Shown piece after piece: positions 49,495 to 55,603 of a DNA stretch of 64,000 bases. This DNA comes from an uncultured Alphaproteobacteria bacterium. GTDB lineage: Bacteria > Pseudomonadota > Alphaproteobacteria > HIMB59 > GCA-002718135. Made by a program: the position numbers and the translations under genes. The stretch is from contig CACGZD010000005.1 in NCBI GenBank assembly GCA_902577425.1, forward strand, positions 28,935 to 92,934, written 5' to 3'. Position 1 is the stretch's first letter; every line of letters starts with the position of its first letter. The notes under the pieces were generated by a model that worked only from the letters and a program-made list of their open reading frames with translations, was not told where the DNA came from and ran no database searches.

Positions 49495-49790
49495 TACACA
49501 ACCCTTTCTTGTTGCTTATCTTTGGTTTATATAGGTAATGTTGGTTTACCAACTATAGTGATAAACGCTTTATGTAATAGGTTGTGCGGACCCGGGGGCG
49601 GTACCCGGCGCCTCCACCATTAAATATGGGGGCGAAATAGGTTTGACGTTGACCAAAAGATAAAGACTTTACTCGGTATTGTACCACCGTTATCGGACTA
49701 TTTTTATAAATGCTAACGATAATAGATTAGCTATCGCTGCCTAGATTCTAGGTTAGCGCGGTCAGGGGCACCGGGCAACAGAACGCCCCA
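49495..49790 (+). ncRNA. ssrA: Circularly permuted two-piece tmRNA (acceptor piece ending at 49619, coding piece starting at 49628)
   Basis: T-arm/acceptor GGACCCGGGGGCGGTACCCGGCGCCTCCACCA precedes the 5' tmRNA start GGGGGCGAAATAGGTTTGACG; tag ORF 49712..49744 reads ANDNRLAIAA-stop. The 5' and 3' ends are approximate. Confidence 0.93.
49778..49789 (+). repeat. 12-bp direct repeat copy 1 (tmRNA 3' end; candidate att site)
   Basis: ACAGAACGCCCC, identical to 53130..53141. Confidence 0.75.
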
Positions 49791-49795
49791 ATAAT

Positions 49796-50518
49796 TTAAC
49801 TCTTATATTTTAAACAAATTAAAATATCTTTGAATAAAATCTTATTAGGATAAATATCTTTGATTTCTTTAATTCCTTTATTTATTTGGTCTTTATTTAG
49901 ATTAACAAGACATGAAATGTATCTATGTTTTAACATTTGAATATATCTACTTTTAGTTATTGAAACTTTAAACTTAAATTTATCAATCTTATAATTTTTT
50001 AATATTTTACAAGTTGATTTAATCATTATAGAATCTCTAATCAATCCCTTATTTAGTTTTTGTTTCATTAGTTTAAAACATGGGATTTCATTATTTATGG
50101 TATTTAAAGAAAATATAATTAATACACCATTTTTCTTTAAATTATTTTTACAAACTTTTATTAATTTAGATCTTTTATTTTTATTAAAAAAATGAAGGGT
50201 TTGCTTAATCATTATTAAATCAAATTTAATTTGATTAGTTTTAAAGAATTTAAATACATCTTCATTTCTAAAATCTATACTTTTATCAACATCCTTATGA
50301 ACTATCGGATCAATTCCAATTGGTTTATTAAGTAGTTTAATCTTCCTAGATATAGTACCAAAAATTTTACCTCTACCACATCCAATGTCTAATATTTTTG
50401 AATTTTTATTAAGTTTTTTCTTCTTAAGTAAAAAACTATTAAATGAATTAATATAAGCCGATGAAGATAACCATGTTTTGTTATCCCAGTTCTTTAATTC
50501 TTTTATTTTATTTTTCAT
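49796..50518 (-). CDS. Class I SAM-dependent methyltransferase
   Basis: KILDIGCGRGKIFGTI motif I; DLIMIKQTLHFF post-motif pattern. Ends a few nt from the tmRNA 3' end. Confidence 0.75.
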   Translation of the reverse strand: MKNKIKELKNWDNKTWLSSSAYINSFNSFLLKKKKLNKNSKILDIGCGRGKIFGTISRKIKLLNKPIGIDPIVHKDVDKSIDFRNEDVFKFFKTNQIKFDLIMIKQTLHFFNKNKRSKLIKVCKNNLKKNGVLIIFSLNTINNEIPCFKLMKQKLNKGLIRDSIMIKSTCKILKNYKIDKFKFKVSITKSRYIQMLKHRYISCLVNLNKDQINKGIKEIKDIYPNKILFKDILICLKYKS

Positions 50519-50554
50519 TAAACAGTTCCAATCATAATATGCTATTAATATTAT

Positions 50555-51139
50555 GTGAATAATTTTACTAATCTTAAATCAAAAATAACAAAACTATGGG
50601 AAAAAAATTTAAAATCAAAAGGTGTAAAATTTCCATCTGGAAGCAAATTAATTGAATTAATTTGTTTGTTTGTTCATATGCCCAATCCTATTTCACAAGA
50701 TGAGATTGAAAAATGGCATATCAAAAATGGTAAGGAATATAAAAGACAAGCAAGACATTTGTCTGATGCAGGATGGTACATAAAATCTGGGAACATAAGA
50801 TTTACAAGAGGTATTTATGAAAAAAATTTTAAAAGAAATCAGATTTGTCTTCACTCAGTAAAAGAACCTAATCCTGTATGGAGCAGACACAATCAAAAGA
50901 GAATAAATAATTTATCTGATTTAGAATGGAAAGCAATATTAGATAAATTTAAAGATAGAGGTTGTGCAGTATGTGGAAGAAAAATGAAACATTACGATAA
51001 GGGACATGTTTTAAAGTCAAAATCATATGATAAATTTAATATTGTGCCAATGTGTGTGGAATGCAATAATTGGGGTCAAGAAGTAGAGTTTAAAGAGTAC
51101 AGAGACTTAGTATATCGACCTATTATTAAAAATAAATAA
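50555..51139 (+). CDS. HNH endonuclease, putative restriction enzyme
   Basis: CAVCGRKMKHYDKGHVLKSKSYDKFNIVPMCVECNNWG: CxxC...H...N...CxxCN zinc/HNH pattern; GTG start; in a gene set with a DNA methyltransferase. Confidence 0.75.
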   Translation: MNNFTNLKSKITKLWEKNLKSKGVKFPSGSKLIELICLFVHMPNPISQDEIEKWHIKNGKEYKRQARHLSDAGWYIKSGNIRFTRGIYEKNFKRNQICLHSVKEPNPVWSRHNQKRINNLSDLEWKAILDKFKDRGCAVCGRKMKHYDKGHVLKSKSYDKFNIVPMCVECNNWGQEVEFKEYRDLVYRPIIKNK

Positions 51140-51840
51140 TGATTTCGGAAACTTATTCAAAAAAAATAAACTCATGTTTAAATGCATTAACTCAGTTAGA
51201 AATTCAACTTGAAACTATAATTAAAAATTACAAAGGTAATAAAATGCCTGAATCCGAAATTGATAAAAGTGAATTTTTTAATTCAATTTTAAAAAAAGAT
51301 TTAAAGAAAGAACATATAACCTATATGAATAATAAATTAGAAAAATTGCAACATTTTAGAGATCATAGAAAACCATATGAATATGGTATTGATTTAGTTT
51401 TGGGATGGATAATTGAAGATGGTGTTTTAGAACTTTTAAAACAGTCTCAAATTCATTCAATTTTAACTGGGAATGATAGATATAGAGAATTTCTACATCC
51501 TAGAAAAATTTCAACTCAACCTGATATTGAAATTGAAACAAATAAAAAAAATAAAAAACTCTTAGAAATCATGTTCAGTTGGAAAGATACTTGGAATAAA
51601 AAGGGACATATTGACTTAAGGGATAGTAAATTAAAAAAATTAAAAGAGCATAAAGCATTATTTTTAGGCATTGAACCAATGTCATCATTAGCTTTTTTAA
51701 TTGATTTCGAGAAAGAGCAGAGTGATTGGGAACAAACTAGAATATCGGGTTATGGAGGAAAGATAGGTTATACAAATAATAATATTAAAAAACATTTAAA
51801 AAGTTTAAAAGATATTTTAAAAATTATTAAAAGTATTTAA
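51139..51840 (+). CDS. Unknown protein in R-M cluster, possible restriction endonuclease or partner subunit
   Basis: TAATGA overlap with the HNH gene and immediately upstream of the C5 methyltransferase; PDIEIE...LLEIMFSWKDTW weakly resembles a PD-(D/E)xK core. Confidence 0.5.
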   Translation: MISETYSKKINSCLNALTQLEIQLETIIKNYKGNKMPESEIDKSEFFNSILKKDLKKEHITYMNNKLEKLQHFRDHRKPYEYGIDLVLGWIIEDGVLELLKQSQIHSILTGNDRYREFLHPRKISTQPDIEIETNKKNKKLLEIMFSWKDTWNKKGHIDLRDSKLKKLKEHKALFLGIEPMSSLAFLIDFEKEQSDWEQTRISGYGGKIGYTNNNIKKHLKSLKDILKIIKSI

Positions 51841-51859
51841 CATTACTTAGGAGATTTTT

Positions 51860-52945
51860 TTGAAAAAATTAATTGGTATAGACTTGTTTTGTGGTGCTGG
51901 TGGTTTTTCTCTTGGGTTAAGTAAAAATAATATAAAAATAGTTCTGGCAAATGAGATAGAGAAAGATTTTGCAAAAACTTTTGAACATAATCATCCTAAA
52001 ACAAAGATGTTGAATGAAGATATTCATAATGTGGATTTTAAAAATGAATTAAAAAAAATTGGATATAAAACTATAGATATATTATGTGGTGGACCGCCGT
52101 GTCAGGGTTTTAGTACCGTTGGAAGTAAAAATAAAAAAGATAAAAGAAATTCTTTGTTTTGGGAATTTTTAAGAGCAGTTAATGAAACTATACCAAAAGC
52201 AGTTATTTTTGAAAATGTTGCTGGTTTTAAGTCACTCTATAATGGACAAGCATATGAAACCTTAATTAAAGAACTTGAAAATATTGGATATAAGGTATTT
52301 ACAGATGTTTTAAATGCTGCTGATTATGGATTACCACAACTTAGAAAAAGAACAATTGTTGTAGGTATTACTAAAGAATGTACATTTGAATTTCCAAAAA
52401 CTATTAGATCTAAGAATAAAAATTTATTTGAAGATAAATATTTAACAATTATGTCTGCAATATCTGACTTGCCCAAATTAAATGTTGGTGAAGAAAAAAA
52501 TAAATATTCTTGTGAACCAAAAAATGATTATCAAAAAAAAATGAGGGGAAATATCAAAATACTAACAGAACACAATTGTTCAAATTATGGAGAGAGAATG
52601 CAAAAAATTATCAGTTTAGTCCCACCAAATGGAAACATTAGTGATTTGCCTCTTAGTTTAAGACCAAAAAAATATTTTAATAATGTTTATGCTAGAATAG
52701 ATCCAACACAACCTTCTCCAACAATAACAAGAAACTTTGGTACTCCATCATCTACAAGGTGTATCCACCCGTTTCAAAACCGTGCACTATCAACAAGGGA
52801 GGGCGCAAGATTACAAGGGTTCCCTGACAAATTTATTTTTTATGGAAGTAAAACTAGCAAGAATCTTCAAATAGGTAATGCGGTCCCACCATTATTGGGA
52901 GAAATAATTGGAAAGCAAATCATAAAATCACTTAATTCTAAATAA
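51860..52945 (+). CDS. DNA (cytosine-5-)-methyltransferase
   Basis: DLFCGAGGFSLG, GGPPCQGFSTVG, FENV, LQIGNAVPPLL motifs; TTG start preceded by SD TAGGAGA. Confidence 0.95.
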   Translation: MKKLIGIDLFCGAGGFSLGLSKNNIKIVLANEIEKDFAKTFEHNHPKTKMLNEDIHNVDFKNELKKIGYKTIDILCGGPPCQGFSTVGSKNKKDKRNSLFWEFLRAVNETIPKAVIFENVAGFKSLYNGQAYETLIKELENIGYKVFTDVLNAADYGLPQLRKRTIVVGITKECTFEFPKTIRSKNKNLFEDKYLTIMSAISDLPKLNVGEEKNKYSCEPKNDYQKKMRGNIKILTEHNCSNYGERMQKIISLVPPNGNISDLPLSLRPKKYFNNVYARIDPTQPSPTITRNFGTPSSTRCIHPFQNRALSTREGARLQGFPDKFIFYGSKTSKNLQIGNAVPPLLGEIIGKQIIKSLNSK

Positions 52946-53129
52946 TCTTTCTGAGAACTTTATAAACATGATCGAAACAAAAGATGTTTAATCAATATTA
53001 GAGAATGACAAAGACTAGGAAGAATCAAAACAAGAAATCTAACAAATAATGAAAACTTACTTTGAAGTTTCTACGAAGAAGTTTCCAAAAGTCTTTATTT
53101 TCTGTTAAAAATGATTTAATGGTCGTTCT

Positions 53130-53141
53130 ACAGAACGCCCC
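53130..53141 (+). repeat. 12-bp direct repeat copy 2 (candidate att site)
   Basis: ACAGAACGCCCC, identical to tmRNA 3' segment 49778..49789, followed by a T-rich tract. Confidence 0.75.
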
Positions 53142-53279
53142 TTTCTTTAAAATAACCTTTATTTCTTCTTACTTTTTATTTTAAAACGAGAAAACACTTA
53201 GCAGACACACTAAAGTCGCAAAATTCCTAATTGAGTTATTGCAATCGATGTTATTTGATAGTACGCGCTTAGTAAATAT

Positions 53280-53849
53280 ATGGATAAAAAAACAAAATTA
53301 GAAACTTTACCTAACAACGCTGCTGATGAAGGTAAACAGGTTTTTTTAAATATAAATGATCGTGTTGGAGATAATCCTAATAAAATGGTTATTGGGAGCG
53401 GAACATCTTTTAAAGGTTCTGATATTAACACTGATTATATTGAAATATATGGAAAAGTGGAAACAAGTATTCACTCAAAAATTATTTATGTCGGCTCTGC
53501 TGCAGAAATTATTGGACCAATTACATGTAATCAAATTGAAATACATGGATCAGTAAGTGGGGGTATCCAAGTAAATGGAAAAGCAACAATAAAAAAAACT
53601 GCTACAGTAGTCGGTACCCTTAGGTATGATATAATTTCTGTTGAAGAAGGGGCAAGTGTTTATTCAGATTTACACTGTACAAAAGCTGATCAAAAATTAG
53701 TTGATAAGATCTCACATCTAAAAAAAACAATGAAGCAGGGTGATTTAAATACAATCACATCACTCATTGTTGAAAATAAAGAGACTAAAATAGAAGAACC
53801 TGCAAAACCTGAACAAGAGAGAAAAAAGAAACGTTCGTTCTTTTCATAA
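53280..53849 (+). CDS. Bactofilin family polymer-forming protein
   Basis: IEIYGKVETSIHSKIIYVGSAAEIIGPITCNQIEIHGSVSGGIQVNGKATI beta-helical repeats. Confidence 0.85.
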   Translation: MDKKTKLETLPNNAADEGKQVFLNINDRVGDNPNKMVIGSGTSFKGSDINTDYIEIYGKVETSIHSKIIYVGSAAEIIGPITCNQIEIHGSVSGGIQVNGKATIKKTATVVGTLRYDIISVEEGASVYSDLHCTKADQKLVDKISHLKKTMKQGDLNTITSLIVENKETKIEEPAKPEQERKKKRSFFS

Positions 53850-53865
53850 AAATTTCTTATAAATT

Positions 53866-54402
53866 ATGTTATCAGTTATAATTGCTTCACTTATAATCTT
53901 TTATGTTTTATTATTGTTTCTTCCTGCGGTATTATTACTCATTCTTGTAAATAAAAAAGAATATATTGAATTACCTGAAGGTCAAAAATATGCAGGTTTT
54001 TGGCATAGGGTTTTGGCTGGTCTAATTGATTTTGTCATTTTATATATATCAAGTTGGATATTTGGTTTTGGTTTTGGTTTTATGATTTTGGCAAATGTGA
54101 GTTATGAAGTGTATGAGTACTGGTCATATGGAATAAGTATTGTATGGATTTTTGTATATCTTTTTTATTATGTATTATTCCAAATGTCTTCAAAACAAGC
54201 AACATTGGGCATGATGGTAGTTGGTATAAAAATATATGATGAAGAACTTAATAGAGTAGGTTTTTGGAGATTGACTGGAAGATATTTTACAACAGGACTT
54301 TCAAATATTATCTTATGGATAGGGTTTTTTATGATTGGCTGGACAAAAAGAAAACAAGGTTTACACGATATTGTCGCAAGAACTATTCATTTAAAAAAAT
54401 AA
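53866..54402 (+). CDS. RDD family membrane protein
   Basis: AGFWHRVLAGLIDFVILYI ... QATLGMMVVGIKIYDE ... QGLHDIVARTI. Confidence 0.85.
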   Translation: MLSVIIASLIIFYVLLLFLPAVLLLILVNKKEYIELPEGQKYAGFWHRVLAGLIDFVILYISSWIFGFGFGFMILANVSYEVYEYWSYGISIVWIFVYLFYYVLFQMSSKQATLGMMVVGIKIYDEELNRVGFWRLTGRYFTTGLSNIILWIGFFMIGWTKRKQGLHDIVARTIHLKK

Positions 54403-54522
54403 ATAAACTAAATCCTAAGAAGATAATTAATTTTATGAAAATATCATTTTTATTCATTAATTATTCCCTAATTTTACTTAAAGCAAGTTGTAGATACCCT
54501 AAAGTAGTACTATAATTTATTT

Positions 54523-55191
54523 ATGAAATTAATATTATTAATTGCATTCTCTATTTATTTTTTAAATATACAAAGCCTTCAAGCTAAACAGGAAGGTTAC
54601 ATGGATTATGAAGATTTTCTTTTTGATGTAAAAGATTATGTTGGAAAAGATGTAAAGGTGCAAGTTTATTTATTAGATGTGAATCTACCTGATAGGATTG
54701 CTAATGTTGATGAGCATGTAGATATAGATATGGAATTAATTAAAAAAGAGGAAATTTTAGATGTATCAAAACTTTGTGATTTTGATACTACTTGTTGGCT
54801 AGATGTAGAGGGTAAAGTTGTAAAAAACCCAAATATATTTCCCGCTTATATTTTGAGAGCAGAAAAAATAAAACTCTATTTTCTAATTGGTGTGGCAGTG
54901 TCAGAATCAGGATATGCATATATAAATACAAGTGAAGAAGGTGCGGTTGAATATTTAAGAAAAAACACAAATGAAGAATATTTATCTGGTTATGTCTGGG
55001 CAGATGGAAGCGGAACATTAGCAGTTGGTCATGGTCTTGGTCCTTCAGAGTTTTTTGCAGCTTGGAGTTTCCATAAAGATAAAACAACTGCAATTGTAGA
55101 AGCATTAAATAATTGCAATGATGAAATTAGTGGTGTTTTAAACATAGGAGTTGAATGTGGAGAGATCACTTTTAATATACCATGGTGGTAA
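54523..55191 (+). CDS. Secreted hypothetical protein
   Basis: N-terminal signal-like MKLILLIAFSIYFLNIQSLQA; no recognised domain. Confidence 0.6.
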   Translation: MKLILLIAFSIYFLNIQSLQAKQEGYMDYEDFLFDVKDYVGKDVKVQVYLLDVNLPDRIANVDEHVDIDMELIKKEEILDVSKLCDFDTTCWLDVEGKVVKNPNIFPAYILRAEKIKLYFLIGVAVSESGYAYINTSEEGAVEYLRKNTNEEYLSGYVWADGSGTLAVGHGLGPSEFFAAWSFHKDKTTAIVEALNNCNDEISGVLNIGVECGEITFNIPWW

Positions 55192-55306: not shown

Positions 55307-55603
55307 ATGGAAAAAGGAATGCTTGTATTAGCAAAATTTAAATCGGGAGAGGGAACGTTTGAAAAATTCATGGGATGGATGCAGTCTGATGAAGGAATGG
55401 GTGTAAGAAAAAGTATTGCTCATGTTGAAAAAACGGTTCCTGCAGTAGCACCGGATAAAAGTTACATTATGTTTAAACTCTCAGTTCATAATGAAGAAGG
55501 TTTGAAAGAATTATCTTCAGGCAATAATCCTATAGCAAAACCGATTTGGGATGAATGTATTGAAAGTATTCAAATATGGGAATTAAGTTCAGTTAATATT
55601 TAA
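55307..55603 (+). CDS. Hypothetical protein (98 aa), possibly ferredoxin-like/ABM fold
   Basis: Complete ORF with ATG and upstream SD-like aggat; no clear family. Confidence 0.55.
   Translation: MEKGMLVLAKFKSGEGTFEKFMGWMQSDEGMGVRKSIAHVEKTVPAVAPDKSYIMFKLSVHNEEGLKELSSGNNPIAKPIWDECIESIQIWELSSVNI

Follow-up and report, generated by a model that had tools for sequence, protein, structure and literature searches.

The 3' end of the transfer-messenger RNA (tmRNA) gene ssrA is probably a shared attachment site (attB) for small integrative cassettes that lack an integrase of their own and are moved in trans by tyrosine integrases. We reached this reading from a stretch of 64,000 nucleotides (the window, meaning the whole stretch analyzed) and from the ssrA loci of related genomes. 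The window genome appears to belong to the HIMB59/AEGEAN-169 group, an order with array-bearing members. That site-specific recombination takes place at ssrA is well supported. In the window, the gene and the two copies of its attachment core lie as follows.

49501..49792, + strand: permuted two-piece tmRNA gene ssrA (RF01849, 234 bits), its last bases forming the attachment core
49778..49789, + strand: core copy 1, ACAGAACGCCCC, as attB/attL within the 3' end of the tmRNA coding piece; position conserved in relatives
53130..53141, + strand: core copy 2, at the joint of two unlike cassette ends

A preliminary description of this DNA had reported the repeat and judged its chance recurrence unlikely, and both points hold. 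The two 12-mers are exact and are the only copies in the 1,519,505-base genome, across which the reversed pattern has none. By chance, about 1e-5 further exact copies would be expected within 3.4 kb (1.2e-5 from base composition, 8.5e-6 from a first-order Markov model). The same description placed the repeat at the tmRNA 3' end. The core does occupy the last bases of the gene, but the gene is circularly permuted, with its CCA near 49620, so that the core sits at the 3' end of the mRNA-like piece and not at the tRNA-like CCA end. Work by Williams in 2003 reportedly found the non-tRNA-like 3' end of permuted ssrA to be an attachment site in cyanobacteria.

What had seemed a local curiosity is an array system found throughout the order and, in fact, in more than one order. 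The exact core is held by 125 of the 162 genomes of the HIMB59 order, while the reversed pattern, used as a control, is almost never found. Relatives carry up to eight copies downstream of ssrA, and over 101 loci of the order 223 copies have the orientation of ssrA and 1 the opposite. At least one complete cassette is present in 60 of 90 ssrA loci, with 1-7 in each and 118 in total; they measure 120-3676 bp (median 817 bp, n = 118) and form 83 families by DNA, 74 of them singletons.

Other relatives show the site in its unoccupied state. In L043, L278, L282 and L283 a single core links the tmRNA to a conserved downstream gene, encoding a rhodanese, at its ribosome-binding site and start, and in L048, L049, L050 and L051 the start of the rhodanese gene follows the last core. 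These empty sites, together with the different cargo that many other relatives carry between cores, bear out the earlier proposal of site-specific insertion at the ssrA 3' end, for which a comparison of this locus across relatives had been suggested. On a tree of 67 genomes, built from the neighboring DHFR/ThyA DNA, the presence of the commonest cassette requires 16 changes and the state of array versus single core 17, counts that homologous exchange of flanks may have inflated. Close neighbors joined by short branches on the tree carry unrelated arrays.

Cassettes are also shared between lineages. G044_c2 and G086_c5, from different families, match over 817 bp at 88%, and G048_c2 and G005_c2, likewise from different families, over 494 bp at 90%, whereas across these f1-f2 pairs the tmRNA genes are only 72% identical. 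Integrase-less cassettes with both ends intact recur elsewhere at 97-98% (G086_c4 and G089_c2; G044_c4 and G052_c1, the latter pair 98% identical and at different array positions). A 0.4-kb cassette from Pelagibacteraceae matches a HIMB59-order cassette over its full length at 84%.

The ends of the cassettes have a regular structure. Left ends fall into classes, each with a short word repeated two or three times at intervals of about 11 bp, some 46-72 bp away from the core: GCACACACT and variants (L1), ACGCGTC (L2), CTACGAAGT (L3), GTGCCGT (L6), GAGCGACTT (L7) and others. The left-end word recurs in the right end of its own cassette at about -50, -82/-71 or -105/-94. A word of at least 8 nt was common to both ends in 41 of 77 distinct cassettes; when left and right ends were shuffled among cassettes as a permutation control, the mean was 6.3 and the maximum 15. 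Core-type plus arm-type sites are the layout of lambda-like tyrosine integrase substrates. The cassette ends fit this layout at the level of DNA, and an integrase would presumably bind them.

An integrase, or a piece of one, lies just after the core in 5 of the 101 loci. In G062 an intact PF00589 frame (1.8e-25) starts about 90 bp after the ssrA core; the integrase of G028 has one frame break, and those of G064, G107 and G115 are fragments. The G028 element has GTGCCGTTT words at both ends and stands in tandem with cassettes, and the same word is carried by G110_c1, a cassette without an integrase. These genomes also have related integrases (about 25-37% identical) next to tRNA genes, where paired words occupy the same place. 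Among 99 relatives, none had the integron integrase TIGR02249 over its cut-off and none had the large serine recombinase PF07508; no conjugation module was identified.

The following mechanism would account for these observations. The 3' end of the permuted tmRNA gene would be a common attB for very small integrative cassettes, each of them a circle-to-be with one 12-bp core, arm words close to its two ends and a small cargo of one to a few genes, most often read towards ssrA. Recombination at the core would place a cassette between ssrA and its flank and, since the tmRNA 3' end is part of the core, would restore that end exactly. Repeated insertion would produce arrays in a single orientation, and excision would return empty sites. 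Since nearly all cassettes lack an integrase, the enzyme is presumably supplied in trans, either by a related complete element such as that of G062 or by a transient helper, and would read the arm words.

A class-wide sample revealed clustered cores beyond the HIMB59 order in G366, which most likely belongs to Pelagibacteraceae (SAR11). In that family the core is present in 256 of 296 genomes, and about 126 of these, by hand count, have at least two in one orientation, with as many as seven. We looked closely at twenty stretches from array-bearing genomes and at the G366 locus. Here too the arrays begin at the tmRNA, consist of small cassettes and have paired words near the left ends, and 68 open reading frames (ORFs) point towards ssrA against 14 that do not. 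No integrase was found within the arrays of these twenty stretches and the G366 locus.

Several results weigh against movement in trans as the full account. We saw neither an excised circle nor an attP, and found nothing attP-like in phage records; a scan of viral contigs with CAACAGAACGCCCC returned chance matches and viral tmRNA genes, with no integrase at a tmRNA core. Thirty-six of the 77 cassettes have no clear match between left and right words, and the corresponding test is weak in SAR11 (11 of 44; permuted mean 4.0, maximum 13). In a 26-member family of 800-bp cassettes the arm words show no clear excess of conservation over the spacer, for which alignment gaps are partly responsible. 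Some cassettes of 0.2-0.5 kb, often with one gene and with tmRNA-like right ends, are apparently armless (L034 c3, L041 c1, L322 c1, L399 c2) and may move by a different route. Finally, the conserved ssrA and flank could let cassettes spread by homologous recombination, the kind of exchange that may also raise the turnover counts.

The arrays could instead have arisen by accretion and decay: the segments would have begun as ssrA islands with integrases of their own, and the small ones would be immobile deletion remnants. The integrase remains right after the core in G028, G064, G107 and G115 are of falling size, the window array is itself degraded, and in Dehalococcoides ssrA islands occur both with and without integration modules (PMC3146451). 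Against this, integrase traces are confined to the five loci, the 74 singletons among the 83 families have intact cores, and the intact integrase-less cassettes that recur at 97-98% do so in other genomes and positions, while others cross family borders. We regard accretion and decay as unlikely. The RNA itself offers another explanation, in which the 12-mer has been kept or copied for expression, as a functional RNA element or a terminator, and is not a recombination site. The ACAGAA within the core belongs to a motif conserved in alphaproteobacterial tmRNA, and core copy 2 can be drawn by eye as a hairpin with its right end. Such an element would leave the single-core alleles, exact junctions, strict orientation, arm words and turnover unexplained, and the empty-site alleles in particular disfavor it; we give it hardly any credence.

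A dedicated resident enzyme, acting in an integron-like system, is a very doubtful alternative as well. The window genome has a single tyrosine recombinase, of 352 aa and on another contig (G000 C3:3436-4491; L255). It is conserved in family f1 and 33-43% identical in SAR11, and lone recombinases of 304-384 aa are found in f1 and Pelagibacteraceae (L256, L417 and others), among whose genomes we found no XerC/XerD pair. In many array-bearing genomes it is the sole PF00589 protein, including the single-contig SAR11 genomes G366 and G579. However, family f2 has the same arrays alongside Xer-type enzymes (329 and 286 aa) and without this gene, which is therefore unlikely to be the general cassette enzyme, and we ranked it low as a candidate. 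No core lies near the gene in G000, and the lack of an integron integrase over cut-off in the 99 genomes also speaks against an integron-like system. Judging from the genes present, the lone recombinase more plausibly, and likely, replaces the dimer-resolution system XerC/XerD.

Under movement in trans by tyrosine integrases, the window would hold a degraded array. The features downstream of its ssrA gene are these.

49796..50518, - strand: generic class-I S-adenosylmethionine (SAM) methyltransferase, cargo (Pfam methyltransferase matches)
50555..51139, + strand: HNH-motif protein, probable nuclease of restriction-modification (R-M) cargo (ORF; HNH motif seen by eye)
51139..51840, + strand: 233-aa protein, candidate restriction endonuclease (ORF)
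51860..52945, + strand: C5 DNA methyltransferase (PF00145, 5.6e-81; PADLOC MTase_II, 1.6e-114; HaeIII and HhaI methylases in PDB)
53060..53079, + strand: right-end arm words CTTTGAAGT and CTACGAAGA, 11 bp apart (R1 class, CTACGAAG type; fixed positions -82/-71)
53142..53214, + strand: left end of the next cassette, L1 class (arm-like word AGCAGACACA at 53200-53209; resembles L1 left ends)
53280..53849, + strand: bactofilin gene (PF04519), cargo of the second cassette, whose right end is lost
53866..55191, + strand: RDD membrane protein and 222-aa protein, set between what remains of the bactofilin cassette and the presumed resident flank
55307..55603, + strand: 98-aa gene, likely resident flank (adjoins ssrA in G001; conserved post-array gene in family f2)

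The preliminary description read the interval between the two cores as a single R-M island of four genes without an integrase. It was right about the four genes and about the missing integrase, but the reading as one unit is not supported. The core and methyltransferase (49774-50521) are 90% identical to a separate unit in G001, and the homology ends at 50521, just beyond the methyltransferase start. The right end before core copy 2 belongs to the CTACGAAG type and has its words at 53060 and 53071, while the matching left end lacks such words; most simply, therefore, two insertions were fused by a deletion near 50522-50554. The R-M genes and the right end thus appear to be a second piece joined to the methyltransferase unit.

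Within that piece the identity of the C5 methylase is certain. The type II R-M reading is a candidate one, suggested by a motif seen by eye and by gene context. The HNH-motif protein had no matches in Pfam, NCBIfam or PADLOC and none in plasmids. The 233-aa protein matches no protein family and is present in 1 of the 162 genomes of the order, that of the window; its sole plasmid homologue, at 24% identity, adjoins a DNA methyltransferase in Thermus, and a single-sequence fold had a predicted local distance difference test (pLDDT) score of 37, a model too poor to use. In the compared loci, the window's R-M genes were found in the window alone.

Beyond core copy 2, two further claims gave way. 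The bactofilin gene, taken earlier for the flank, is cassette cargo: positions 53150-53859 match the bactofilin cassettes G086_c2 at 88.6% and G101_c2 at 86.7%, both of which lie between cores. The match ends just beyond the stop codon, the right end being lost in the window. The TTTCTTT that follows copy 2, where copy 1 is followed by AATAATTT, had been taken as a sign that the insertion parted the tmRNA from its terminator; it is the left end of this next cassette. Neither the RDD membrane protein nor the 222-aa protein recurs in the compared loci. On gene order, the 98-aa gene at 55307 is the strongest contender for the resident flank, although it sits between two cores in G001 and in one SAR11 genome. 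The array in the window would consist of a methyltransferase unit joined to an R-M cassette with its right end but no left end, followed by a bactofilin cassette with its left end but no right end.

Cargo across the order is diverse. Among 124 cassette proteins we found 53 Pfam families, none in more than four members, including trypsin-like peptidases, DUF805, methyltransferases, acetyltransferases, HNH and Exo_endo_phos nucleases, and bactofilin. Ninety-seven cassette genes run towards ssrA (minus) and 32 run plus. In 54 protein pairs the signal-peptide start is near-identical, and the mature part matches as well in only 6 of the 54, as though leader and cargo were interchangeable modules. 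Leaders seen on otherwise unrelated cassette proteins begin MKTLLTLFVLFFSSS (for example in L033, L320, L331 and L292) and, in SAR11, MKKLLAIVVLGLLWSGNA (L394-L398).

Some observations concern cores and tmRNA genes in other settings. Core copies lie away from the tmRNA gene in L323, L324, L408, L409 (G582) and L413 (G634), with a few core pairs among those of G582 and G634. Some have tmRNA-like upstream DNA and some stand in a taaagaatgggatctgtgacacgca context beside the 800-bp cassette; they are possibly secondary sites or displaced cassettes. The short contig C33 of G018 (L035) has a second, divergent tmRNA gene, 71% identical to that of the window and with a degenerate second core 177 bp on; contamination is possible. 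SspB (PF04386) is encoded a few genes downstream of ssrA, beside gpmA and fumC, at L043:3061-3495 and at equivalent positions in many g6 genomes. In Escherichia coli, SspB is the ClpXP adaptor for ssrA-tagged proteins. The viral contigs L196, L210, L244 and L254 contain permuted tmRNA genes (tags ADENLALAA and AKTINADENLALAA) that end in CAACAGAACGCCCC, which is consistent with earlier descriptions of phage tmRNA (PMC9004378).

SAR11 and AEGEAN-169/HIMB59, both with tiny genomes, are among the dominant bacteria of the ocean, and the arrays would bear on how such genomes gain one or two genes at a time. A defined slot behind ssrA, with readable boundaries and arm words, would make turnover countable in single-cell and metagenome data and yield direct candidates for the enzyme. 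We found no description of such arrays in the open-access papers searched, although one may exist elsewhere, and the papers on AEGEAN-169/HIMB59 islands do not mention tmRNA or ssrA. It appears that some of Earth's most abundant cells gain and lose genes in cassette fashion, by a route that has not been described before. More tentatively, and with somewhat less than even confidence, we suggest a third natural cassette system beside integrons and CALINs (clusters of attC sites lacking integron-integrases), in which ssrA is the capture site, the cassettes are minimal att elements addressed by arm words, and integrases from transient helpers bring in, swap and remove single genes in SAR11 and HIMB59. 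These streamlined genomes would then have a rotating slot for accessory genes.

The arrays resemble several known systems in part. As in islands of the Islander type at tRNA and tmRNA genes (PMC4383910), insertion is at the 3' end of an RNA gene, the gene is regenerated and a displaced fragment marks the other end; here, in contrast, almost no cassette has its own integrase, and the window island has none. Of the systems described, the Dehalococcoides ssrA islands come nearest: they lie in tandem downstream of ssrA, between repeats of its 3' end, and are partly integrase-less (15 of 31 lack an integration module). They are larger and use DsiB, a CcrB-like serine recombinase, and mobilization together with neighbors has been proposed for them (PMC3146451). 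In our arrays the enzyme found is a tyrosine integrase and PF07508 is absent (0 of 99), the median cassette is 0.8 kb, the ends have arm words, and attachment is at the non-tRNA-like 3' end of a permuted tmRNA gene. The cassettes are also like cis-mobilizable elements (CIMEs) in having att sites on both sides without recombination or transfer genes, and in standing in tandem beside relatives. Known CIMEs derive from integrative and conjugative elements and number few per genome, whereas we identified no conjugation module and found whole arrays of tiny elements in three families. With integrons and CALINs the arrays share small cassettes in one orientation, mostly of 1-3 genes, with vast diversity and no recombinase in the cassettes; they differ in having no IntI over cut-off, in being anchored at a host RNA gene, in their lambda-like arm words, and in cargo that is mostly read towards the anchor.

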